Positions 11,125 through 30,882 of a stretch of 32,043 bases of DNA are shown here, piece after piece. How positions within the stretch are numbered: position 1 is the stretch's first letter; every line of letters starts with the position of its first letter. The stretch comes from Lachnospiraceae bacterium (GTDB lineage Bacteria; Bacillota; Clostridia; Lachnospirales; Lachnospiraceae), in the NCBI GenBank assembly GCA_021205305.1, contig JAJPXU010000158.1, forward strand, positions 1 to 32,043. The letters are read 5' to 3'. The notes beneath the pieces are model-generated. The model saw only the letters and a program-made list of their open reading frames with translations. It was not told where the DNA came from and ran no database searches. Made by a program: the position numbers and the translations under genes.

Positions 11125-11722
11125 CAATTTCCGGGAATTCATTGACTGCTCTATAAGAGCAGCGGAAGGCGAAGGAAAAGAAAGAACATTCACACTTTCT
11201 TTTTCATCCGAAGAACCATATGACAGGTGGTTCGGCCCCGAGATCCTGGACCATTCAGACGGGTGCATGGATCTAAATAGGTTAAATTCTATCGGGGTCG
11301 TTTTATACAACCACAGCCGGGACAAGGTGATCGGGAAGATCGACCGCGCCTGGGTGGAAAATGGAAGGGGATGCGCGGAAATCACATTTGATTCGGACGA
11401 CGCATCCGAAACGATCTACCAGAAAGTCAAGGGCGGGACGCTCAAAGGCGTTTCAGTTGGCTACATGGTAGATAACTGGGAGGAAGTAATGCCCGGCAAG
11501 ATGTCAGAAGACGGAAGGTTCACGGGGCCGTGCTCGATCGCTAAGAAATGGGTGCCTTATGAGATCAGCATAGTCAGCGTTCCGGCGGATCCGACGGTCG
11601 GTGTAGGCCGATCGCAGGAAGAAGCCGAAAGCGGACCGGACGCCGTGTTTGAGACATACGCGCGGCTGCTTCAATACAATATAAACATTTCATTAAAGGG
11701 AGGTCAGCACAATGACTATTGA
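10967..11722 (+). CDS. Prohead protease (HK97/S78-like)
   Basis: A 251-residue protein. ATG 10967 has GGAGGT 10 bases upstream inside the portal gene. The first 45 residues are basic and likely disordered because they are encoded antiphase to the portal tail. The catalytic region carries the family pattern: His in VLYNHSRDKVIG and Ser in LKGVSVGYMV, followed by WVPYEISIVSVPADP. It should cleave the scaffold/delta part of the capsid protein. It overlaps the capsid gene by 11 bases. Confidence 0.88.
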   Translation: MANWRQKKKRKKNRLLQMTAAIRAETIQTPVTELQRMAAPKTGTTETEKRKNDNFREFIDCSIRAAEGEGKERTFTLSFSSEEPYDRWFGPEILDHSDGCMDLNRLNSIGVVLYNHSRDKVIGKIDRAWVENGRGCAEITFDSDDASETIYQKVKGGTLKGVSVGYMVDNWEEVMPGKMSEDGRFTGPCSIAKKWVPYEISIVSVPADPTVGVGRSQEEAESGPDAVFETYARLLQYNINISLKGGQHNDY

Positions 11723-12224
11723 AGAAATCATTGCTCGTCAGAGGGAGCTTCTCAATTTGGCTCAGGGCGAAGGGAGAGCGCTGACGGACGAAGAAAGAAA
11801 CGAATTCGACTCCCTGCAGCGCGCGCTTGAAAGTATGCGCACCGCGCCGGGCGGCGAGGGTGGCGGTGCTGTAGGCGGCCAGGCTGCCGGGGCCGACGGC
11901 GGAAACAGCGGGGACGGCGGTGAAGATTCCGCCCGCCAGATCGAGACGGAAAGAAACCGGATCCGCCAGATCGAAGACCTCTGCCGTGAATTCCATATGG
12001 ACGATCAGGCACGGGGCTTTATTGATAACGGGAGCACCCTGGAACAGGTACGCGCTGCCGTGATCGAGCATATGCGCCAGACCGGCGCGCCGGTCCATAC
12101 ATCCGCCAGAATCACAGATTCCGCGGAAGATAAGTTCAGACGCGCGGCGTCCGATTCTATCCTGATGCGCGCGGGAATCAAGATACATGGCCCTCGCCGG
12201 GTGGTCGGTAGAAGATTCATGTAA
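11712..12224 (+). CDS. Major capsid protein, truncated after N-terminal part
   Basis: A 170-residue frame. Residues 1-130 are a normal HK97-type N-terminal delta/scaffold region (MTIEEIIARQRELLNLAQG, an acidic Gly-rich linker, SAEDKFRRAASDSILMRAGI). At about residue 158 the homology stops and 13 unrelated codons (HGPRRVVGRRFM) follow, read out of frame through the beginning of the tape-measure segment. A complete capsid protein would be about 350-450 residues. The shell-forming domain is missing, so this product cannot build a head. Ribosome site GGGAGG lies before ATG 11712. Confidence 0.85.
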   Translation: MTIEEIIARQRELLNLAQGEGRALTDEERNEFDSLQRALESMRTAPGGEGGGAVGGQAAGADGGNSGDGGEDSARQIETERNRIRQIEDLCREFHMDDQARGFIDNGSTLEQVRAAVIEHMRQTGAPVHTSARITDSAEDKFRRAASDSILMRAGIKIHGPRRVVGRRFM

Positions 12225-15200
12225 TTCATTGGAAAGCGTCCTGCGCCTATCAGAAGCGACGGAGCTGGATCTTGCAACGACATCCGACCTGGTAACGGAT
12301 TCCATGAGTGCGATGGGCGTTTCTATCGACGAACTTTCGAGCTATCTGGATGTATGCGCGGCGGCGAACAATAATTCAAACCAGACGGCAGAAGACCTCA
12401 TGAATGCAATGATCGGCTGCGGCGGCGCGGCGCGATCCGCCGGGCTTGATTACACAGAGACGGCAACGGCCCTCGGCATCCTGGCAAATAACGGTGTTAA
12501 AGGATCCGAGGCGGGCACGACATTAAACTCCATCCTGACGCGAATCAGCGCGAACGATTCCGCGCTATCGGCTTTTGATGAACTGGGCGTATCCGTTTAT
12601 GACAGTTCCGGCGCAATGCGTGATTTACAGGATATCCTGATAGATACGAATTCCGCGCTGGACGGCATGGCAGATTCAGAGAAAAACGCATATTTGAAGG
12701 CTATAGCCGGAACGAACTATTATAGTGACTTCCAGTATTTGCTGGCGGGCGTATCAGACGCGACGGACGAATCTGCCTCGTCATGGGATACCCTGGCGGA
12801 ATCGTTGGAGAATTGCGACGGTGCTCTAGAATCAATGGCGGAAACGAAGCTGGACAATCTGGCCGGGGATCTATCTATCTTTTCGTCAGCATTGGAAGAC
12901 GTACAGCTGCGGATCTATCAGGGCATCCAGGAGCCGCTCAGGGACGTCGTGCAGTTCGGAACGGACGAAATATACAAACTATCGGACGCTTTCACGGAAG
13001 GCGGCTTTACGGGCATCGTGGGCGCGCTGGGCGACGTTTTGGCGGATTGTCTGGTAAAGCTTGCGAACGCCGCGCCGGAATTTATCAGCATGGCGGGCGA
13101 ACTCATGGAAGGCCTGATCGGCGGGCTTTTGGCAAATTCAGGGAAACTCACGGATTCAGTAGCGACGCTGATAGCAGCGGCGGTCGAAGAAGTATTTTCT
13201 TTCATGGCTGATTTTTATACAGCCGGGGCGGAATTGCTTGCGGAATTTTTAGACGGCGCCGTCACGAAACTGCCTATGCTGATTAATTCTATAGTTGGAT
13301 CGTTATCCGAAATGTTGGAAGGGATTAATTCATTTGCTCCGGATATTGCATCCTCGGCAATGTTGATAGTAACGGAACTGGTGGCCGGAATCGGTCAGCT
13401 TATCCCTATGCTTATCAATGCGGGCGCGGATATCATCGTATCAATTGCGGACGGGCTATCCGGCGGATCGCCGGAACTTTTATCCTCAATGTCAACGGCG
13501 GTTGATAATATCATCAGCGCGATTATAGACGCAGCGCCCCGGATCCTCCAGGCGGGCGCAACGTTGGCAAAATCACTGGCGCAGGGCGTGGTCGGGAATA
13601 TTACGTCCCTGTTTTCAGACATTGGAAGCGGCGACGCATCGTTTACACAGATCGCGGCTACTTTCGGTACAATCGCGGTCGTAGCAGCGAAGCTCGGTTC
13701 CAGCATATCCGGATTGATAAAGCCTTTTACAAAATTATCATCCGGCCTGGTAAAGACGGCTTCGTCAGCAGCGAAATTTATAAATAAATCAGGCGGCCTG
13801 ACGAAAGCTATTTCAGCTCTTACAAAAGGCGGTCTTTCTAAAATTGGATCCGTATTCAAGGCGATGGCTTCCCCGGTCGGAATAGCGGTCGCAGCTATCA
13901 CAACGCTGGTGGCGGCGTTCACGACACTATGGAACACAAACGAAGGATTCCGGGACGCGATCAAAGGGATCTGGAGCCAGATCACAAGCACAATAAGCGG
14001 ATTCGTCGAAAGTATCACAGGGTCCGTCGACGGCCTGGGGATATCGTTTTCAGATATCACAAGCACCGTGTCGGCAATATGGAACGGATTCTGCGAGCTT
14101 TTGGCCCCGGTATTTATTGGAGCATTCCAGCAGATCTCGAACACGATCAGCGGCGTGCTGGGCGTAATCAGCGGGATCATTAAAACAGTTACAAGCATTA
14201 TACAGGGTGACTGGGAAGGCGCGTGGGAAGGCGTCCGGGGCGTTATTTCATCCGTGTGGAATTTCATAGCTAATACGATCGACAACGTAGGAAATACGAT
14301 CACGGGAATCATAAACGCCTTTTTAGGCCTTATCGGATCAGACTGGACCGTTTCGTGGGAAGGGATCAAAGAAACGGTATCAGGCGTATTTTCCACAATA
14401 TCCGGCGTTATATCCGGCGTGATGTCAGTAATCAGCGGGATAGTAAATACAGTCATGAAGTTCATAAGCGGGGACTGGTCAGGTGCCTGGGAAGGCATCA
14501 AGTCGACGGCATCCGGGGCCGCGGACGGATTATCCGGCGCGGTATCGGGCGGGTTCGACCTTTTGACCGGCGCGATTAGCACGGTCGGATCCGGGCTCGG
14601 GTCACTTTTAAGCGGCGGCTGGAGCGCGCTGACTTCCGCAGCATCGGACGCAGTAGAAAACCTGCCGGAAACACTATCCGGAGCCTGGGACACTTTCACC
14701 GGGGCGGTTAGCGGCGTGGGCGAGACATTAGGCCCGCTTTTGGACACCGGCTGGGAGAACCTGAAAACAGCGGCATCTACAGCAATTGAAGGCGCACCGG
14801 AATTTTTATCCGGGGCATGGACGACTTTCACGACCGCAATCAGCGGTGTGGGTGAAACATTAGGTCCGCTTTTGGACGGCGGCTGGGAGAGCTTGAAGAC
14901 GGCGGCGTCAACCGCTATTGAAGGTGCACCGGAATTCCTATCAGGAGCCTGGAGCACTTTCACGACCGCAATCAGCGGCATCGGCGACACATTAGGCCCG
15001 TTATTGGATACCGGCTGGGAAGCTTTGAAGACAACAGCAAGCGACGCGATCCAGAACGCACCGGAAGCCCTGGCTGGAGCCTGGGAGACATTCAAAACGG
15101 GGATCACAACGGTCGGCGATACACTCGGGCCATTGCTTGACACCGGGTGGGACGCGTTAAAAACAGCAGCGTCTACAGCGATCGAGGGTGCGCCGGAATT

Positions 15201-16710
15201 TCTATCCGGAGCCTGGGAGACATTCAAAACGGGAATCACGACGGTCGGAGACGCGCTCGGTCCGTTATTGGATACCGGCTGGGACGCACTTAAAACGGCC
15301 GCAAGTACAGCCATAGAAGGTGCACCCGATTTTCTTTCAGGAGCCTGGGACACGTTCACGACCGCAATCAGCGGCGTGGGCGAAACAATAGGCCCGCTTT
15401 TGGATACCGGCTGGGAAACCTTAAAGACAACCGCCAGCGGGGTCGCGGACGGGATGTCCGGCCTCGTAGAAACCGGGTTCAACGATATGGTCGACCTGAT
15501 CAGCGGCATAGATGTCGGCACGGCATTAGATGCCGGATGGAGCACCCTGCAGGGGGCGGCCGAAACAGCCGCGGGCGCGGTACAGACTGCCTGGGAAGGC
15601 GTCAAAGGATTTTTCGGCGGCATATGGAATTCAATCACAGGCGGCGGAAGTTCAGATTCAGGATCCACGGAAACGGCATCTGTCTCGAGCGTAGACACAA
15701 GCGCTTCGTCCGTAACGATTGAAGTAGATTCCGAACAGGTTGAAACAGCAAACGCGGCTATAGAAGCATTGAATACCGGGCTGGAAACATTGCAGGAAAC
15801 GCTGGACGTTATCGGAGCATTGACAGGATTCACGGATCTTTCGACGTCCGTAACGGACGGAACGACGGCAATAACAGAGGATCAGTCAACGATTGAGACG
15901 TCGGTCGCGGCGATTCAGACGGCCTTCGAGACTGGGGCAACAGGCGCACAAACGGCGGTAGAAACCGGAACGGCTGCGATCCTCGCGGCTTTTGAATCAG
16001 ACACGGCGAGTTCCCAGACGACGGTGGAAACCGGGATGTCCGCGATTTTGGAAGCGATTACTTCCGGGATGTCGCAGCTCGTAGCGGCGGTTACTTCCGG
16101 CGGATCAAGTGCGGTATCGCAGGCGACCTCAATAGCTACCAGCATCCGGACGGCATTTTCAAGTATTAACCTGTATTCGACCGGGGTCAATATGATGCAA
16201 GGCCTGATTAACGGTCTGAACGCAATGCGGTCAAGCGTAATGCAGACGGCGTCCAGCATTGCGACCGCGGCGGCGAACAGCATAAACAATGCTCTGGACA
16301 TCAATTCACCGTCCAAAGTTACGACGGAATCCGGCGAATATACCGGCCTCGGCCTCGTGGAAGGCCTGGCAAACATGGGTTCAGCGATTGAGGCCGCGGC
16401 GGCGGATAACCTGGTGGCGCCGATCAGTGACGCAATATCGTCTATCAATGACAGCGCGGCGGGTGAGGCGGAAACCTCCGTAATCGGGGACACGATTAAT
16501 AATTTTTCCGGAAGCGGATCCGGAAGCTCCGGCGGATTCGGAGGCAGCAGCGAAACGCCGGTTCAGATCACATATAGCCCGACATACAACTTCGAAGGCG
16601 AAGCGCCGAGCAAAGACGATCTGGTGTCGGCGGCGAAGATCAGTCAGAACGAATTTGAAAAAATGATGAAGGAATACCTGCGGAAGAATAGCCGCGTATC
16701 CTTCGCATAA
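12187..16710 (+). CDS. Tail tape measure protein, N-terminus missing (TP901/TIGR01760 type)
   Basis: A 1507-residue frame that opens directly inside the conserved tape-measure core (ALAGWSVEDS, LATTSDLVTDSM, GILANNGVKGSEAGTTLN), which normally begins 100 or more residues into the protein. There is no ribosome site before ATG 12187, and the tape-measure homology begins at about YM (12184). The middle has hydrophobic helices and phage-type repeat units. Residues about 832-1095 are six 44-residue repeats with conserved Trp, and the C-terminal region is Ala/Thr-rich. It would set tail length and line the tube. With its 5' end replaced by the capsid fragment it is probably not expressed properly. 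Confidence 0.88.
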   Translation: MALAGWSVEDSCNSLESVLRLSEATELDLATTSDLVTDSMSAMGVSIDELSSYLDVCAAANNNSNQTAEDLMNAMIGCGGAARSAGLDYTETATALGILANNGVKGSEAGTTLNSILTRISANDSALSAFDELGVSVYDSSGAMRDLQDILIDTNSALDGMADSEKNAYLKAIAGTNYYSDFQYLLAGVSDATDESASSWDTLAESLENCDGALESMAETKLDNLAGDLSIFSSALEDVQLRIYQGIQEPLRDVVQFGTDEIYKLSDAFTEGGFTGIVGALGDVLADCLVKLANAAPEFISMAGELMEGLIGGLLANSGKLTDSVATLIAAAVEEVFSFMADFYTAGAELLAEFLDGAVTKLPMLINSIVGSLSEMLEGINSFAPDIASSAMLIVTELVAGIGQLIPMLINAGADIIVSIADGLSGGSPELLSSMSTAVDNIISAIIDAAPRILQAGATLAKSLAQGVVGNITSLFSDIGSGDASFTQIAATFGTIAVVAAKLGSSISGLIKPFTKLSSGLVKTASSAAKFINKSGGLTKAISALTKGGLSKIGSVFKAMASPVGIAVAAITTLVAAFTTLWNTNEGFRDAIKGIWSQITSTISGFVESITGSVDGLGISFSDITSTVSAIWNGFCELLAPVFIGAFQQISNTISGVLGVISGIIKTVTSIIQGDWEGAWEGVRGVISSVWNFIANTIDNVGNTITGIINAFLGLIGSDWTVSWEGIKETVSGVFSTISGVISGVMSVISGIVNTVMKFISGDWSGAWEGIKSTASGAADGLSGAVSGGFDLLTGAISTVGSGLGSLLSGGWSALTSAASDAVENLPETLSGAWDTFTGAVSGVGETLGPLLDTGWENLKTAASTAIEGAPEFLSGAWTTFTTAISGVGETLGPLLDGGWESLKTAASTAIEGAPEFLSGAWSTFTTAISGIGDTLGPLLDTGWEALKTTASDAIQNAPEALAGAWETFKTGITTVGDTLGPLLDTGWDALKTAASTAIEGAPEFLSGAWETFKTGITTVGDALGPLLDTGWDALKTAASTAIEGAPDFLSGAWDTFTTAISGVGETIGPLLDTGWETLKTTASGVADGMSGLVETGFNDMVDLISGIDVGTALDAGWSTLQGAAETAAGAVQTAWEGVKGFFGGIWNSITGGGSSDSGSTETASVSSVDTSASSVTIEVDSEQVETANAAIEALNTGLETLQETLDVIGALTGFTDLSTSVTDGTTAITEDQSTIETSVAAIQTAFETGATGAQTAVETGTAAILAAFESDTASSQTTVETGMSAILEAITSGMSQLVAAVTSGGSSAVSQATSIATSIRTAFSSINLYSTGVNMMQGLINGLNAMRSSVMQTASSIATAAANSINNALDINSPSKVTTESGEYTGLGLVEGLANMGSAIEAAAADNLVAPISDAISSINDSAAGEAETSVIGDTINNFSGSGSGSSGGFGGSSETPVQITYSPTYNFEGEAPSKDDLVSAAKISQNEFEKMMKEYLRKNSRVSFA
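14680..15471 (+). repeat. Six 132-bp tandem repeats in tape measure gene
   Basis: Units begin at 14680, 14812, 14944, 15076, 15208 and 15340, each encoding 44 residues with GAWxTF, GxTLGPLLDTGW and LKTAAS. A degenerate copy precedes (from about 14548) and a partial one follows. Exact 132-base spacing means no indels. Repeat number in such genes tracks tail length in known phages. Confidence 0.9.
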
Positions 16711-16727: not shown

Positions 16728-17033
16728 ATGGCATCTACATATACAACGGTTCAGGGCGACACCTGGGACCTCATGGCATACAAGCTTTACGGGGACGAAA
16801 AGTATATGAAGAATCTTGCAGAAGCGAACTGGCCCCTCCTCGACGTTTTGATTTTTGCGGGCGGGGTAGAAATCACGGTTCCGGATCTTCCGGAAGAAGT
16901 AGATACAGACGCCCCGTTCTGGCGCGAAGACGATACGGAGGACGGAGGGACGTCCTCCGATACCGTAGAAACGGATCAGGGCGGCGAGGAAGACAGTGAA
17001 ACCATAGAAGACGATGAGGATTACGATCTATGA
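16728..17033 (+). CDS. Tail protein gpX (LysM-like)
   Basis: A 101-residue protein. The first 65 residues are a P2 gpX/LysM-type domain (YTTVQGDTWDLMAYKLYGDE, then a PDLP end). The tail is almost entirely Asp/Glu/Thr/Ser. GGGAGG precedes ATG 16728. It overlaps gpD by 4 bases, the order X then D as in P2-like contractile-tail phages. It probably attaches the tail tip or baseplate hub to the tape measure end. Confidence 0.88.
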   Translation: MASTYTTVQGDTWDLMAYKLYGDEKYMKNLAEANWPLLDVLIFAGGVEITVPDLPEEVDTDAPFWREDDTEDGGTSSDTVETDQGGEEDSETIEDDEDYDL

Positions 17034-17686
17034 GTGTAAACGCGGATGTAAGGCGGGCGGTCCCGAGCCTGACATTTAACGGGACGAACGTAGACACGAA
17101 GCTGGCGCCCTATCTTGAAAGCGTATCCTATACGGACGTCGCATCCGGAAGCAGCGATTCAATCGACATCCAGGTTCAGAACATTGACTTCAAGTGGCTT
17201 GATTCTTGGTATCCGGTAAAGGGTGATAAGATCAAGGGAAGTATCAAGTTCAAAAATTGGAAGAGCGCCGGAAGCGATCTGAAGTTAAGCTGCGGGACAT
17301 TTATCCTGGATGAAATCAGCTTCACGGGTGGGCCGCTCAGGTTGAAAATGAGCGCGTTGTCCACTCCGGCGGATGAATCTTTTAAATCCAGGGAACGGAC
17401 GCAGACGTGGAAGAAAGTGACGATCCAGCAAATCGCGCAAACGATCGCGAGCCGGTATTCTTTGAGTTTATCTTATTCAGGCTCTTCGATCACGATAGAT
17501 GCGCTTGAACAATCGGACGAAACGGACTCGGCTTTCCTATATTCCCTATGTGAAGATTATGGCTTGTCAATGAAAGTTTACAATGAAAAGCTTGTAATCT
17601 ATGACCAAACGACAAAAGAAACAGAAGGCGCGATCGCGGTCCTGAGACGGAAATCTTTTGTGGGCGACGAATGGACTTATGGCTGA
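17030..17686 (+). CDS. Late control protein gpD, truncated
   Basis: A 218-residue frame. It carries the gpD/VgrG-like hub N-terminal domains (LAPYLESVSYTDVASGSSDS, SWYPVKGDKIKGSI, LSTPADESFKSRERTQTWKK, TIQQIAQTIASRYSLSLSY). P2-type gpD is usually about 350-390 residues. Here the frame ends right after FVGDEWTYG, the place where the second barrel half normally continues. The stop (TGA 17684-17686) overlaps the DGR target start. The protein would be the baseplate hub; this version lacks its C-terminal part. Confidence 0.85.
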   Translation: MSVNADVRRAVPSLTFNGTNVDTKLAPYLESVSYTDVASGSSDSIDIQVQNIDFKWLDSWYPVKGDKIKGSIKFKNWKSAGSDLKLSCGTFILDEISFTGGPLRLKMSALSTPADESFKSRERTQTWKKVTIQQIAQTIASRYSLSLSYSGSSITIDALEQSDETDSAFLYSLCEDYGLSMKVYNEKLVIYDQTTKETEGAIAVLRRKSFVGDEWTYG

Positions 17687-18761
17687 TTATGATATTTCTA
17701 ATTTTGCTTTGAAGGCGTGCTGCCCGAGCAACGAACTGCTTTACGATGATAAGGGACTTCCGTCCGTTATGGTAAAGATCCCCAAATTTAAGCTTTCGGA
17801 AGTATTGGACGGCGGCGCGGATGAATATCATCCGGCGTTTATCGTAAACGGAAGTACGCTGGACTATATTTATATTTCCAAGTATCAGAACGTGGTCGAG
17901 AATGGCCGCGCATACAGCAAGCCCGGCGTGGATCCGCAGGCAAACATCAGCTGGACGAACGCGAAGGCATACTGCGAGGCAAAGGGGGAAGGCTGGCACC
18001 TTATGACCGCCGTAGAATATGCGGCGATCGCGCTCTGGTGTAAGAAAAACGGCTTTATGCCATACGGTAATAATAATTACGGGAAAGACAGCCGCGAAAC
18101 GCTTTACAAGGCAATTCCGGCCACGTATGACAGTAGCGGAAACATTAGCCATGTACTGACCGGCACCGGCCCGCTCACATGGAGCCATAACGGCGAGCCG
18201 GACGGGATCTGGGACATTAACGGCAATGTTTCAGAATGGGCCGGTGCAAAGCGTACCGTATACGGCGAGATCCAGTTCCTAGTGAATAACAACGGCGCGG
18301 ATCTGAATAACGATCAGGGTGCAAGCTCCGCGGAATGGATGGCGATCGACGCGTCAACGGGCGAATTCGTGACGCCGGACGGATCCGGAACGACGACAAA
18401 CACGATCAAGGTGGATAATGTTTCATCCGGATATTATGGTATTACGGTCACGACCGAAAGCTCCGATTTTAGCTTTGCGATCGGGTCAGCGACCTGCACA
18501 AGTGATATTTCAGACGCCGCGAAAGCGACCCTCCGCGCGTATGGATTGCTTCCGGAAGACGGATCTACGGCCGCGGACTATGATAATGACCGGTTATACT
18601 GGAATAACGCGGCATCCGAGCGCATGTTCGGCTCGGGCGGTTACTTTAGCAGCACTACCTACGCTGGAGTTTTCTACGGCAGCGGCATCAGCGGCACCCG
18701 TACCATCACTTACACGAGCATAGGCTTCCGCTCCGCTTATGCCCCCCTGCCAACTGCTTAA
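17679..18761 (+). CDS. DGR variable (target) protein, FGE/C-type lectin fold
   Basis: A 360-residue protein from ATG 17679; TTG 17658 would add 7 residues that belong to the gpD frame. Domain signs: VMVKIPKFKLS, AKAYCEAKGEGWHLMTAVEY and GIWDINGNVSEW, the formylglycine-generating-enzyme type of C-type lectin fold used by many DGR targets. The last 46 residues contain the variable repeat (residues about 314-352), ending GFRSAYAPLPTA. No Shine-Dalgarno lies before the start, which overlaps the gpD stop by 8 bases, so translation may depend on coupling. The predicted role is a phage tip ligand-binding protein whose binding face is diversified; the ligand is unknown. Confidence 0.9.
   Translation: MADYDISNFALKACCPSNELLYDDKGLPSVMVKIPKFKLSEVLDGGADEYHPAFIVNGSTLDYIYISKYQNVVENGRAYSKPGVDPQANISWTNAKAYCEAKGEGWHLMTAVEYAAIALWCKKNGFMPYGNNNYGKDSRETLYKAIPATYDSSGNISHVLTGTGPLTWSHNGEPDGIWDINGNVSEWAGAKRTVYGEIQFLVNNNGADLNNDQGASSAEWMAIDASTGEFVTPDGSGTTTNTIKVDNVSSGYYGITVTTESSDFSFAIGSATCTSDISDAAKATLRAYGLLPEDGSTAADYDNDRLYWNNAASERMFGSGGYFSSTTYAGVFYGSGISGTRTITYTSIGFRSAYAPLPTA
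18620..18735 (+). repeat. DGR variable repeat (VR)
   Basis: 116 bases align gap-free to 19266-19381. There are 16 differences, all at template adenines (10 A to G, 6 A to T), changing 14 codons, mostly AAC. None of the roughly 79 non-A positions differs. The last 17 bases (18719-18735, CATAGGCTTCCGCTCCG) are identical to the template and then diverge abruptly, as expected of the initiation-of-mutagenic-homology site. A short GCGGC/GCCGC stem lies at 18782-18796. Confidence 0.95.
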
Positions 18762-18821
18762 CTGTTTTCCTGATCCGGACCGCGGCAGCGGGCCGCTAAC
18801 CTAAAGCAAGAAAGGAATGTC

Positions 18822-19250
18822 ATGCAAGAGATACCGAACAATTACACCGAAAACGTCGGCGAAGAATGGGAGCCGCAAGATTCGATCCTTCTAAAGAAAA
18901 TCATAGATATGATGTTATACGCTTACATAGTATTGCGGAATTTTCCGAAGTCGGAGCGTTACGCGATCGTCGCGGATATCAAGCGGTGTATGGATGAAAT
19001 GATGGAGCTGGTCATAGAGGCCGATAACAAGCATTACAAGAAATCCACACTTCACGACCTGGACACGGTGAACAAGAAATTGAAGAAGTATATCCTGCTG
19101 ACATTCAAGTTAAAATTTCTTGCTATGAAACAGTATGAAAACTGGACCGAAAAGGTGACGGAAATCGGCCGGATTATAGGCGGCAGGATCGCGGCGGAAG
19201 AGGCCAAAGAGGCAAGAGAAACCAGGTCAAAACAAAGAAACTATAGATAA
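18822..19250 (+). CDS. avd: DGR accessory variability determinant (Avd)
   Basis: A 142-residue, all-helical, basic protein (SILLKKIIDMMLYAYIVLRN, FPKSERYAIVADI, YKKSTLHDLDTVNKKLKKYI) matching the four-helix-bundle Avd family. Avd proteins form pentamers that bind the reverse transcriptase and the template RNA. Ribosome site AAAGGAA lies before ATG 18822. It sits between the target gene and the template repeat, the standard DGR order. The Arg/Lys-rich tail (KQRNYR) may contact RNA. Confidence 0.9.
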   Translation: MQEIPNNYTENVGEEWEPQDSILLKKIIDMMLYAYIVLRNFPKSERYAIVADIKRCMDEMMELVIEADNKHYKKSTLHDLDTVNKKLKKYILLTFKLKFLAMKQYENWTEKVTEIGRIIGGRIAAEEAKEARETRSKQRNYR

Positions 19251-19265
19251 AGGGAAGCGGATAAT

Positions 19266-19381
19266 GCGCATGTTCAACTCGGGCGGTAACTATAACAACA
19301 CTACCAACGCTGGAGTTTTCTACAGCAACGGCAACAACAACACCCGTACCAACACTAACACGAACATAGGCTTCCGCTCCG
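19266..19381 (+). repeat. DGR template repeat (TR)
   Basis: This is the invariant donor for the VR at 18620-18735. It is rich in AAC triplets, which maximise amino-acid variety without stop codons when A is mutated. About 37 adenines are present and 16 differ in the current VR. Read from ATG 19264 it forms a 44-codon frame in the same register as the target, ending TAG at 19396-19398. Confidence 0.95.
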
Positions 19382-19580
19382 TTTTGCCCACATTATAGGC
19401 AGATACCCGGCGGCCACGGCTTCCGGGGCAGTTCCCAGGGGGCAAATGATCCGCTCCCCGTGCCGAAAGGCAGAAAAGCAAAAGAGCGGCGGTCCGCAAC
19501 CCGGACGAACAATCTGGAGGGCGGCGCAAGTCTGCAAGTAGATCACAGATCAAAAGCCGATCCGCCGCGGAAATAAATAA
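19382..19580 (+). ncRNA. DGR RNA spacer between TR and reverse transcriptase
   Basis: A GC-rich, non-coding 199-base stretch with self-complementary blocks (CACGG near 19416 with CCGTG near 19459; GATCCGC and GCGG words). In the characterised Bordetella phage element, the RNA directly downstream of TR is required to prime cDNA synthesis. The equivalent role here is inference from position. Confidence 0.55.
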
Positions 19581-20702
19581 ATGTCAGACGATGGGATTTT
19601 TCAGGAATTCACGTCGTTTCCGGCGCTATATACAGCATACTGCGAAGTATCCAAAGGGAAGGCAGAAAAGACCGACCTGCTCCGGTTCGAATATGATTTA
19701 GAGGGGAACCTCCATTCAATCAGCGACGGGCTGAGGGCCGGGAACGTCCCGAAAGTGCAGTATAAAAGTTTCTATGTATACATTCCGAAAGTCAGAAAAG
19801 TAATATACATAGACTTTCCTAACAAAGTTATACAGCGCGCACTTTATGACGCAATTAACCCGCGCCTGGCGAAAACATTCATTTCGGATACATACGCCTG
19901 CATTCCAGGCCGCGGCCAGCTTGCGGCAATGCTCCGCGTAAAAGACTGGATGGCCGAAACAAGACGGAGGCCGGGCGAATGGTATTACTGGAAATTTGAC
20001 GTAGCAAAATTCTTTTACCGCATCGATCACGATGTCCTGATGCAGATTATCAGGAAGAAGATCAGAAGCCCGAAAACGGTGGATCTTTTGGAATATTATA
20101 TCTGCGACACCGGGGAACCGTTCGGGATCCCGATTTGCGACAATCAGCTGGACGTGAAAGATTCAGATATGATTTTTGATGTCGGGATACCGATCGGCGG
20201 CGGTCTATCGCATACGCTCGGGAACTTGTATTTAGATCCGCTGGATCAGTTTATCAAGCGCGATTTAGGCTGCCACCAGTATATCCGATATATGGACGAC
20301 GGGCTGATATTTGATAATAACAAAGAGCGATTGCGGGATAACGGGAAACGCGCGGAAGAATTCCTGAACGAGCGATTGAAGCTCGAGTTTAATAAAAAGA
20401 CGGTCCTGCGCCCGGCCAGGTGCGGCGTGGAGTTTGTAGGGTGCAATATTTACGACGATCACGTCAGGCTCAGGAAAAGCACAACGCTCCACATGAAGCG
20501 GGCTTTAAAGAAGACCATGATTGACTATAATCAGGGATCTATCACATTTGAGCGGGCAAACCAGACCGTCCAGTCTTACAGGGCAACTTTGAAACACGTA
20601 GACATGGACAAGTTTAACGATTCGCTCTGGTCGTGGTTCGTATTGACAAAGGGCGATCTAAAAGAAGCCCTGGCGAATCCGGCCCCACCTATGAGATTTT
20701 AG
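19581..20702 (+). CDS. DGR reverse transcriptase
   Basis: A 373-residue protein, the normal size. Palm motifs are in order: DTYACIPGRGQLAAM, FDVAKFFYRIDHD (motif 3, first catalytic Asp), IPIGGGLSHTLGNLYLDPLDQF (motif 4, shown across the 20-residue core), and YMDD at residues 237-240. The 'thumb' helices follow. The DGR hallmark in motif 4 is (I/V/L)GxxxSQ; here it reads IGGGLSH, so Gln is replaced by His. Start ATG 19581 lacks a clear ribosome site. It copies TR RNA into adenine-mutagenised cDNA together with Avd. It appears intact. Confidence 0.95.
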   Translation: MSDDGIFQEFTSFPALYTAYCEVSKGKAEKTDLLRFEYDLEGNLHSISDGLRAGNVPKVQYKSFYVYIPKVRKVIYIDFPNKVIQRALYDAINPRLAKTFISDTYACIPGRGQLAAMLRVKDWMAETRRRPGEWYYWKFDVAKFFYRIDHDVLMQIIRKKIRSPKTVDLLEYYICDTGEPFGIPICDNQLDVKDSDMIFDVGIPIGGGLSHTLGNLYLDPLDQFIKRDLGCHQYIRYMDDGLIFDNNKERLRDNGKRAEEFLNERLKLEFNKKTVLRPARCGVEFVGCNIYDDHVRLRKSTTLHMKRALKKTMIDYNQGSITFERANQTVQSYRATLKHVDMDKFNDSLWSWFVLTKGDLKEALANPAPPMRF

Positions 20703-25524: not shown

Positions 25525-26058
25525 ATTTTTGTAAGCGTAGGCTATGCAGACGGACTCGGCTCCGGTGTCAGAAATTTGTATAAGTTTACAAAAATATATT
25601 CCGGAGGAGAGCCAGATCTTGAAGAAGGGGATGTATTCCGTTTGACGGTTCCTTTGATAAATAATAGTTCTGAAAACTCGGCGATTGGAAACGACAATCC
25701 GGCGATTGACGATAAAAACCAGGCGTTTGAGACTGAAAAGTTGGCGATTGATGGCAAAAACTCGGCGATTGAAGACGAAAAACTGGTGATTGGAAATGAA
25801 AACCCGGCGATTAAAGTGAATGAAAAAATAAATATGGCGATAGAAGAAAATAAATTTAGTGAGCCCACCAGGCTGAGAATTCTGATGATTTATCGTAAGA
25901 TAGGAGAAGGGAAAGTTTTTGGAACAAGTGATATTGCTCAGATTTCAGGTTGTTCATCTTCAACTGCACATGAATTATTAAGGAAACTTCGTGAAATGAA
26001 TGTTATTGAGAAAGTGAAAGGAAATGGAAAAGGCCGTTATATGTTCATTTCGGAATGA
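25525..26058 (+). pseudogene. C-terminal remnant of AlbA_2-type ATP-binding regulator
   Basis: The frame opens with FVSVGYADGLGSGVRNLYK and continues SGGEPDLEEGDVFRLTVPL, the C-terminal signature of AlbA_2/HATPase_c_4 'putative DNA binding' proteins; the 300 or so residues normally in front are missing. A linker of seven-residue repeats (AIGNDNP, AIDDKNQ, AFETEKL, AIDGKNS, AIEDEKL, VIGNENP, AIKVNEK) follows. A winged helix (RLRILMIYRKIGEGK, SGCSSSTAHELLRKLREMNV) ends it. No start codon fits; TTG 25576 is internal. Homology begins right after the hairpin. Confidence 0.75.
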
Positions 26059-26123
26059 TAAAGCAAGTAGCGTTTTTCCGGATACTTCATATGATAAAGA
26101 AAACCATTTTAAAGGATTATCGT

Positions 26124-26660
26124 ATGAATATGAAATCGAAACGAATCATGGTAGCAGCTTTTTCTTTGATACTTGCGATTGGGAATTCCACAGCCGCCTT
26201 TGCTATGGAGGAAGAAGCTTCAGAACAGGTGTCTGCTGTAGTAGAAACGGAAGAGGTCCCTGTTGCGGCTGACATAACAGAAGCAGAGCAGAAACTCACC
26301 GTCGTCACCTTAAACGAGGTTGCACACTCGATTTTCTACGCGCCGCAGTATGTGGCGATTGAGTTCGGCTATTTTGAGGAGGAGGGCATTGACCTGACAG
26401 TCGTGACTGGCTTTGGTGCGGATAAGACAATGACTGCGCTGATTTTCGGTGAGGCGGATATCGGGTTTATGGGTTCGGAGTCTTCGATTTATACCTACAG
26501 CGGCGGCGCGGCGGACGCACCGGTCAATTTTGCGCAGCTCACCCAACGCGCCGGGAATTTTGTGGTTGCCAGAGAGGATACCGATGACTTTGAGTGGAGT
26601 GATTTGATTGGAAAAGACGTGTTGGGAGGGCGTGTTGGTGGCGTACATATATCAATGTAA
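26124..26660 (+). pseudogene. ABC transporter substrate-binding protein, 3' truncated (SsuA/NMT1-like)
   Basis: The first 178 residues of a nitrate/sulfonate/thiamine-type binding protein: signal peptide (KSKRIMVAAFSLILAIGNST), then TVVTLNEVAHSIFYAPQYVA, EEEGIDLTVVTGFGADKTMT, GEADIGFMGSE and LTQRAGNFVVARE. The frame dies at LGGRVGGVHISM, in the middle of a domain that is usually about 300 residues. It is followed 50 bases later by the tnpV remnant, so a mobile element may have cut it. AAAGGA lies before ATG 26124. Confidence 0.75.
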
Positions 26661-28215: not shown

Positions 28216-30882
28216 ATGCAAGCGGCTTTTTTATATATTGCAAACAGAAGCATTCTGTCTATAGGACTGATCGTGATTGTGTTATTGTTGCGCTGCATTT
28301 TTCGGAATGACTCCAAATTCATCCGCTGCATCTTCTGGGGTTTTGTCGGGGTACTTCTTCTTTTCCCATTGTCGATTCCTGAATTTCTTTCTGGAAACGG
28401 TGCGGGTGATGCTTTGGTGGGAATGAAATCAGCCGAAGTGACTTCAGATTCTGGAGATCATTCGGAGAGTTATGACATAAATCTGGATACAGATGGAGCG
28501 GAGTCAGTAATAACGGGCTCTGTCATTTCAGGTATGGCTGTGTCAGATGAACAAGATGAAAACAGTGAGGCAGATAGCGAATGGAATACAGTGATTTCTA
28601 CGGAGATTTTAGATACAATCGCAGGGAATTCGGAAATGGCTACAGACACAGGGAATGTCATTGTAGAAAGGTCTGATGCAACAACGGAGACGGCAGATGC
28701 TGGAGATTCTTGGAAGAACTGGTTGCTCCTTGAAATTCAACTGCCGGAATATATTGTTTCTGTCCTGTCTGTTATCTGGCTTGTCGGGGTCGTGTTGTTA
28801 TGTCTTTACTTGCTTGTTGGTCATGCGGTGATGAAGAAGCGAGTGAGCATATGTATGAGGAAGAGTCGGAAAGACGGTGAAAGTGACGTCTGGCTTTGCG
28901 ATGATATCGATTCTCCGTTTTTGTTTGGTTATCTGCGGCCCCGGATTTTCATTCCCTCTGATATGGAGGAATGGCAGATTTCATATGTTGCTGCGCATGA
29001 AGGGGTACACAGAAAACAGCGTGATTATATATGGAAGACGGCAGCGTTTTTGATCGCGGCACTGCACTGGTTCAATCCATTTGTGTGGGTAGCCTTTCAC
29101 TGTTTTTGCGCGGATCTGGAACTATCCTGCGATGAAAAAGCGACAAAAGATATGAGCGACGACGACCGCGCTTTATACGCAAAGACACTTGTGGCGTGCA
29201 GCAGTCAGAAAAGGGTAACGCCGGTGCATTTGTTGGCTTTTGGCAAAAACGCGGTAAAAGAAAGGATTTGTGTGGTTATGAAAAAGAGAGTATCAAGAAG
29301 GAAAAGAATGATCTGTAACCTGCTGACATGCGTACTTTTTTCAGTAAGCTTCCTTGCAGCGGCGGCTGTCGGCACAAAATATGTATCCTGTGCGGAAGAA
29401 AGCAGCGGAATTACCACAATTGTCTGGGCGGTACCGGAGAGCAATACCACTATGTTTTACGGGTCTGGATCTGGAGTGAAAAGCTGGTATAAGGAGACAG
29501 ACCGGTTGAACGCAGATTTGCTGAATGAACAGCTGGAAGCAGATGGATACAGCTTCCGGCTGGAAGTGAAATACATCCCATGGGGCAATAGCCGCAGTGA
29601 ATTCATCGAGACAGGGGAAAATGAGGCTTATCCGGCAGAGGATTATTATGCTTCCTTAAAAGAAGTTCTGGAGGATGGAACGGCGGATATAGTTTCCTGC
29701 GTTTCGATTGGTTCAGACGCGATTTCGGAGCTGGTGCGCGGCGGTTATCTTGCGGACATTTCGGATTATCTGGATTCAGACGAAGGGTTTGCGTTAAAAA
29801 ACGTATTTTATGAAGAACTTTGGGAAAGTGTCTGTGTGAACAGCTCTCTTTGCCTGCTTCCGACAGAACTTGCTGCGAATGGAACTGACTATTATGCATT
29901 TAACAAAACGTATTTTACAGAGGAGGATCTGGCTGCATTTGACGGAACCGCGCAGTCGCTTTTGCAGCTTCTGGAAAATTGTGGAGAGGAGAATCTGAAA
30001 GAAGAAAATCTGAAGGTGGTCTGGGGTGCGGATCTGACTTCGCTCGCGTATTCGGCAGGGCAGCAATATACAGATGGTGTGCTGCTTGATCTGGAGACAG
30101 GTAAGGTGAGAAGCCTTGCCGGGTCAGAAGCATTTATGGAAGAAGCGGATGCCATCCGTTCGATGCGCGAGAATGGATATTTTGGGGAAGATGGAAGTTC
30201 CTGGCAGCCCGGAACAACGTTGTCTGTCACAAAGGCGGGGCTGGAGTGCGGCGTTGCCGTCTGGGTTGGCGTAGACGCAGTGGAGATTTCAGAAGAAGTA
30301 AAGGATGATGTCATTCTGGTGCAGATGCCTTACGCATATTCCAATACTCTTGGCTATAATGTTGCGGTGAACAGCCAATCTGACTGTCAGAAGGCGGCAT
30401 TAGAACTTTTGGCGCTGCTCTATACAAATGAGGATTATGCGAACCTGTTGCTCTGGGGAGAAGAGGGTACAGATTATGAAGTGACAGATGGGACAGCCAC
30501 CGCATTGACAGAACGGGCGGCGAGCATCAGTATAAAACAGTTCTGGACCGGGCTGTACAAAGAAATCTGGTCTGCTAATCAGGAACCGGAGACCTTGTCT
30601 GAAACTACTGGAAGCCTGCTGACGAAAACTGATTTGTATAACGATACAGGAAAGAAAGATTCGACTGTGACAGACTTTTGCATAGATCGCTCGGAATTTG
30701 ATGAGGAAATGAGTGCCTTTTCCGATATTGCTACACAGGCGGCGTATGCTTATATGAAAGGCAATATTGATCTGGAAGAATTTACGGAACGGCTTGAGGA
30801 AGCAGGAGGGGAGAAAGTGCGTAGTCAGATCAGCAGGCAGATGACGAAATGGGAAAAGAGTAAGCGGGGAAAATCTCGTTAA
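28216..30882 (+). CDS. BlaR1-like M56 metalloprotease receptor with solute-binding sensor domain
   Basis: An 888-residue protein. Residues 1-370 form the M56 membrane protease: helices at about 8-28, 37-53, 180-205, 280-300 and 352-372, with the zinc motif HEGVH at 261-265 and ELSCDEKA downstream. An unusual acidic Ser/Thr-rich insert of about 115 residues (57-170) lies between helices 2 and 3. From about 385 the extracellular part is not a penicillin-binding domain but a type-2 solute-binding fold (LEDGTADIV; ISELVRGGYLADISDYLDSD; YYAFNKTYFTEEDL; ALLYTNEDYANLLLWGEEGT), as in sugar or peptide ABC binding proteins. AAAGGAGGAG precedes ATG. It likely senses a solute and triggers repressor cleavage. 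Confidence 0.88.
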   Translation: MQAAFLYIANRSILSIGLIVIVLLLRCIFRNDSKFIRCIFWGFVGVLLLFPLSIPEFLSGNGAGDALVGMKSAEVTSDSGDHSESYDINLDTDGAESVITGSVISGMAVSDEQDENSEADSEWNTVISTEILDTIAGNSEMATDTGNVIVERSDATTETADAGDSWKNWLLLEIQLPEYIVSVLSVIWLVGVVLLCLYLLVGHAVMKKRVSICMRKSRKDGESDVWLCDDIDSPFLFGYLRPRIFIPSDMEEWQISYVAAHEGVHRKQRDYIWKTAAFLIAALHWFNPFVWVAFHCFCADLELSCDEKATKDMSDDDRALYAKTLVACSSQKRVTPVHLLAFGKNAVKERICVVMKKRVSRRKRMICNLLTCVLFSVSFLAAAAVGTKYVSCAEESSGITTIVWAVPESNTTMFYGSGSGVKSWYKETDRLNADLLNEQLEADGYSFRLEVKYIPWGNSRSEFIETGENEAYPAEDYYASLKEVLEDGTADIVSCVSIGSDAISELVRGGYLADISDYLDSDEGFALKNVFYEELWESVCVNSSLCLLPTELAANGTDYYAFNKTYFTEEDLAAFDGTAQSLLQLLENCGEENLKEENLKVVWGADLTSLAYSAGQQYTDGVLLDLETGKVRSLAGSEAFMEEADAIRSMRENGYFGEDGSSWQPGTTLSVTKAGLECGVAVWVGVDAVEISEEVKDDVILVQMPYAYSNTLGYNVAVNSQSDCQKAALELLALLYTNEDYANLLLWGEEGTDYEVTDGTATALTERAASISIKQFWTGLYKEIWSANQEPETLSETTGSLLTKTDLYNDTGKKDSTVTDFCIDRSEFDEEMSAFSDIATQAAYAYMKGNIDLEEFTERLEEAGGEKVRSQISRQMTKWEKSKRGKSR

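Follow-up and report, generated by a model that had tools for sequence, protein, structure and literature searches.

The prototype diversity-generating retroelement (DGR), BPP-1 of Bordetella, requires a hairpin after its variable repeat (VR), and phage DGRs carry GC-rich stems of 7 to 10 bp with GRNA loops at this site, as in BPP-1 (PMC3240598). Other systems comparable with the one presented here are a Thermus aquaticus prophage DGR with the target protein TaqVP (5VF4), the elements of Faecalibacterium phage FP_Lagaffe and Dulem virus 37, and several DGRs in IMG/VR. Here, we analyze a DGR in a 32,043-nt stretch (hereafter, the window) of contig JAJPXU010000158.1, from the metagenome-like assembly GCA_021205305.1 of a Lachnospiraceae bacterium. 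Its cassette consists of a target gene, the accessory variability determinant gene avd, a template repeat (TR), and a reverse transcriptase (RT) gene, all on the forward strand. We find that this is a genuine phage-type DGR with past activity, lying within a prophage that has most likely been crippled recently. The present function of the cassette in this copy is doubtful.

The IMG/VR elements L116/L033, L117, L118, and L115 have the same order of target, Avd, TR, and RT wherever the contig shows it. Their RTs are 64 to 67% identical to that of the window and share its motif IGGGLSH (“SH-type” below), and the best of their targets is 69% identical. In contrast to the window, these relatives have AGGAGG before the target, and the record of L118 holds whole capsid and hub genes with the intervening open reading frames (ORFs). 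In FP_Lagaffe and Dulem virus 37, target, Avd, and RT follow baseplate genes in the window's order; their targets are 50.5% and 52.8% identical to that of the window, their RTs (motif GNLTSQ) 35% and 34%, and their tail gene blocks are whole. TaqVP is 32% identical to the window target and has longer inserts in the alignment. The window RT is homologous to 8ub7, its best solved match by sequence (E 4.6e-34), which we take to be the BPP-1 bRT complex. The DGR itself adds one more case and is ordinary in kind. The locus illustrates that a cassette may be open, with a VR altered only at adenines, and still not work, and that the flanks must be read too.

The cassette and its adenine-only footprint

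The VR (18620..18735) lies at the 3′ end of the target gene, and the TR (19266..19381; 116 bases, 37 of them A) is a second copy 646 bases away. An earlier note, made from the letters of this DNA, had given these coordinates and a gapless alignment across all 116 bases; both were confirmed by realignment. A recount gave the same result as the note had reported: 16 of 16 VR/TR differences fall on TR adenines (10 A>G, 6 A>T, and 0 A>C), while none of the 79 non-A positions differs. Fourteen target codons are altered, described in the note as nearly all AAC; these are 12 AAC, one TAT, and one AGC. Given 37 A among 116 bases, the chance of 16 of 16 differences falling on A is 7.4e-10.

Two copies at this spacing could in principle be a chance or drifted duplication formed without any DGR mechanism. 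We give this explanation next to no weight, because every difference falls on A, related elements show the same bias, and a DGR RT and Avd stand alongside. The adenine-only pattern of the VR is supported as the footprint of past mutagenic retrohoming. The note had likewise taken it as too improbable for drift and as a mark of past activity. Activity of the lineage in the past follows from the footprint; activity of this copy at present does not.

The TR pattern (first 48 bases, adenines masked, at most 3 mismatches) occurs twice in the 3.1-Mb genome of origin, at the VR and at the TR, against 0 occurrences of a reversed-pattern control; the same search found no second VR in that genome. An adenine-masked stretch of the TR had no exact counterpart in the viral or genome contigs searched, no RT relative was found by single-sequence peptide patterns, and the region had no match in the plasmids searched. 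The adenine share of the TR (0.319) is the highest among the compared TRs of 100 to 130 bases.

The target gene (17679..18761; 360 aa) starts at an ATG at 17679, within the listed frame 17658..18761, and matches PF03781 (FGE-sulfatase). The product is homologous to TaqVP and, like it, is an FGE-type C-type-lectin protein. A confident model predicts the C-type-lectin fold, the one usual for DGR targets, in agreement with what the note had proposed to model; the target alignment comprises the window target and 57 of the 85 relatives. Next comes avd (18822..19250; 142 aa), whose product matches PF22296 bAvd (E 6.7e-23) and phrog_3206, “Avd protein of DGR.” The RT gene (19581..20702; 373 aa, active-site YMDD) matches PF00078 RVT_1 and phrog_1423, “Reverse transcriptase.” The spacer between TR and RT (19382..19580) is predicted, by analogy with BPP-1, to be part of the DGR RNA; its RNA fold is not significant (z −1.66). 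All of these ORFs are open, and the cassette, its adenine-only footprint, and the lectin fold are plain from the sequence.

By analogy with BPP-1 and TaqVP, RT and Avd would copy the TR RNA with errors opposite template adenines, and the resulting cDNA would replace the VR at the 3′ end of the target. The varied TaqVP-like lectin would then change what the tail of a contractile-tailed phage binds.

Apparent deletions in the surrounding prophage

The cassette lies in a prophage. Genes for the small and large terminase subunits, the portal, and a protease are found upstream, and endolysin and holin-like matches are also present. Features of an intact contractile-tailed prophage are only partly found here: terminase, portal, and lysis genes are present, but a whole capsid gene, a whole hub gene, sheath, and baseplate-J are not.

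At apparent deletion junction 1 (12187..12194), the match of the major capsid gene fragment (11712..12224; a 170-aa ORF) breaks at residue 161, compared with 512 aa in an intact relative, and the following bases are already inside the tape-measure gene (12187..16710), which lacks ~140 N-terminal residues. In L215, the record of L118, the corresponding points are 6.2 kb apart. Between them lie the remainder of the capsid gene (512 aa) and ORFs that, judged by length and arrangement, would be connectors, sheath, and tube; these names come from synteny with FP_Lagaffe. The distance is also 6.2 kb in a second relative record; the other three of the five records have no capsid match, so it cannot be measured there. 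The tape-measure ORF also has internal repeats, including one repeat pair 225 bases long whose members are shifted by 132 bases and differ at 59 positions.

Apparent deletion junction 2 (17660..17683) falls at the target start codon. The gpD-like tail hub gene is reduced to a fragment (17030..17686; 218 aa, against 442 aa in a relative), and its match ends at residue 210, 19 bases 5′ of the target ATG. Between hub match and target, L215 has 4.95 kb of hub and baseplate-type ORFs, and L033 has ~5.0 kb. The alignment of L033 and L034 to the window sets in at the target ATG, and their AGGAGG leader is absent from the window. About 4.95 kb and the ribosome-binding site of the target appear to be missing. 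Target relatives were drawn from viral contigs (the best 80 of 113). An AGGAGG site precedes the target in all 30 of the relatives checked (in 27 the site is complete, and in 3 it has five of the six bases); these are the more similar ones among 85, some of them near-duplicates. The window has no such site.

Could the prophage be intact in the organism, both joins being assembly errors and the DGR a normally functioning part of an inducible phage? The assembly is metagenome-like (173 contigs, 90.9% complete), every cassette ORF is open, and intact relatives with the same gene order exist. Against this, both junctions are unique in the genome, contain no N, and have no repeat of at least 12 bases in the window. 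Moreover, Phage_sheath_1 (PF04984) and Baseplate_J (PF04865) have no match anywhere in the same genome, while each was found in 3 of 14 control genomes. On balance, the evidence favors real deletions over assembly error, and we consider an intact prophage unlikely.

A second alternative is that the locus was retained for its DGR after the virion genes were lost, the target now being used by the host or by co-resident phages, with its translation coupled to that of the hub fragment. All four parts of the cassette are indeed open though neighboring genes are cut, and the stop codon of the hub fragment overlaps the target ATG. However, recent neutral loss accounts for the same facts, and the target's own ribosome-binding site is gone. 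This explanation therefore seems quite improbable.

We favor a crippled prophage instead. Such a prophage would have lost two blocks of virion genes after the DGR had been active, one loss ending at the target start codon. The outcome would be the present copy, with an open cassette, a target gene lacking its own ribosome-binding site, and incomplete or missing genes for capsid, sheath, tube, and baseplate. Several observations weigh against this account. With an assembly of this kind, the joins could be errors, and the missing virion genes could lie in unassembled sequence. The remaining ORFs are all open, which fits either a very recent loss or no loss. The overlap of the hub-fragment stop with the target ATG makes coupled translation possible, and the hairpin after the VR is imperfect. 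Finally, among the viral and genome contigs, no relative was found close enough to reveal VR variation at this TR.

The earlier note had called the DGR complete. This holds in that every part of the cassette is open. It does not hold for a working element, because the cassette adjoins an apparent deletion that removed the baseplate genes along with the ribosome-binding site of the target, and because at a second apparent deletion the capsid gene is largely missing, as are the positions of sheath and tube.

Reverse transcriptases with SH in place of SQ

At residues 205 to 211 of the window RT (20193..20213), the DGR signature (I/V/L)GxxxSQ is replaced by IGGGLSH; the aligned 8ub7 chain has IGSLTSQ in this region-4 motif. 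The SQ dipeptide, a characteristic of DGRs but not a defining one, is absent, and the window RT reads SH. RT relatives were collected by a five-sequence profile search (the best 80 of 159) and also from 98 near genomes and 391 genomes of the same class. Unbiased ungapped scoring gave a repeat pair for 143 of the 172 RT-matched loci, some of these pairs not being TR and VR; among the 143, the TR is mostly a few hundred bases 5′ of the RT. In the window, this automatic scan chose the tape-measure repeat, and the VR and TR coordinates of the earlier note were used for later counts.

False repeat pairs (L139, L140, L143, L051, and L193) were removed by hand from counts, clusters, and tree. With these five and duplicates removed, 119 elements were compared. 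Loci whose RT is shorter than 300 aa or carries a different motif do not enter the clusters or the tree, and the tree also excludes nine duplicate loci. Loci L117, L120, L200, L122, and L137, whose repeats align over only 75 to 82 bases, represent three distinct elements with 11 non-adenine mismatches; they were dropped from the clusters, the tree, and a 15-element count of the cleanest SH-type DGRs.

A tree was built by a quick method from 141 rows, 124 of them different. In it, a branch with a Shimodaira-Hasegawa-like approximate likelihood ratio test (SH-aLRT) value of 100 separates the 23 SH-type RTs from all others. They neighbor the SQ-type RTs L005 to L007 of the same genus and are nested in a larger SQ set. 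Because the SH-type RTs form a single side of a branch inside the SQ set, their motif needs only one change on this tree. The tree supports placing the window RT in a clade in which GxxxSQ has been replaced by GGG[LM]SH.

The SH variant itself is already known: DiGReF (PMC3521204, 2012) reported departures from SQ in 15 of 155 DGRs, listed SH as one of them, and noted that adenine exchanges were retained. We found no description of a clade fixed for SH in the literature searched. DiGReF also proposed that the SQ dipeptide sets fidelity or adenine specificity (PMC3521204), and SQ variants have been taken as probable inactivation (PMC4244168). The SH clade offers a natural test of the former proposal.

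Mismatches between repeats fall on adenines in 236 of 253 cases among 18 SH-type elements (including the three with short alignments), in 205 of 211 among the 15 cleanest, in 1262 of 1357 among 93 SQ-type elements, and in 105 of 114 among 8 elements with other or cut RTs. The adenine share is higher for SH than for SQ without the three short-alignment elements (Fisher P = 0.023) and does not differ with them (P = 1.0). This argues that the Gln of SQ is not the source of adenine specificity, since specificity appears to persist in a clade that has His throughout.

Among the 18 listed pairs of elements with TRs at least 98% alike, which are not independent of each other, 218 of the 236 VR differences lie at TR-A columns. 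This shows that the family has been active; it does not show the same for the present copy. A few elements, possibly aging DGRs, are less clean: several mismatches lie off the adenines in, for example, L053 (9 of 16 at adenines), L072 (10 of 18), and L082 (17 of 25), and in L117 (around 917 and 1557) the TR and VR differ slightly in length. In L004, an SH-type DGR from the same genus, 100 consecutive N lie within the TR/VR stretch (around 1112 to 1212) and preclude a comparison of its repeats.

An altered mutation spectrum was considered as an effect of SH, as A>C makes up 28 of 205 adenine changes in SH-type elements and 314 of 1259 in SQ-type elements (cluster permutation P = 0.0037; pooled Fisher P = 0.00025). 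We rejected it: A>C is just as infrequent in the sister group, which is of SQ type (2 of 22), and in L141/L144 (2 of 26), and the listed SQ groups range from 8 to 34%.

The hairpin after the VR and other observations

A candidate hairpin follows the VR at 18776..18795, on the forward strand. It has an 8-bp stem with one A·G mismatch and a GGCA loop, which fits GRNA. It surfaced only in a mismatch-tolerant scan; an inverted-repeat search found nothing near the VR or TR. With a score of 5 and a DNA fold z of −1.27, compared with −4.70 in L035 and −5.09 in L118, it is weaker than in most relatives. Stems in L116 and L119 are perfect. Of 112 elements, 67 have a stem scoring at least 7 after the VR (10 with one mismatch) and 21 have one after the TR, compared with 2 for shuffled VR flanks; the commonest loop is GATA. 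We dropped the mismatch as a sign of decay, as L121, read by eye, has a similar one.

Elsewhere in the window, an 888-aa ORF (28216..30882) combines a peptidase M56 domain of the BlaR1 type with a match to DUF3502 and a weak, below-cutoff match to a solute-binding protein. A 201-aa ORF (26055..26660) matches only the start of NMT1/THI5-like transporter-binding proteins (profile positions 5 to 96 of 216) and is probably cut short. In G017, a genome of the same genus, eight matches (L020 and seven others), with the same score and a frame of 487 aa, are to a non-DGR RT. These copies resemble a multicopy group II-type RT, and the motif of L020 reads QGGNLSP.
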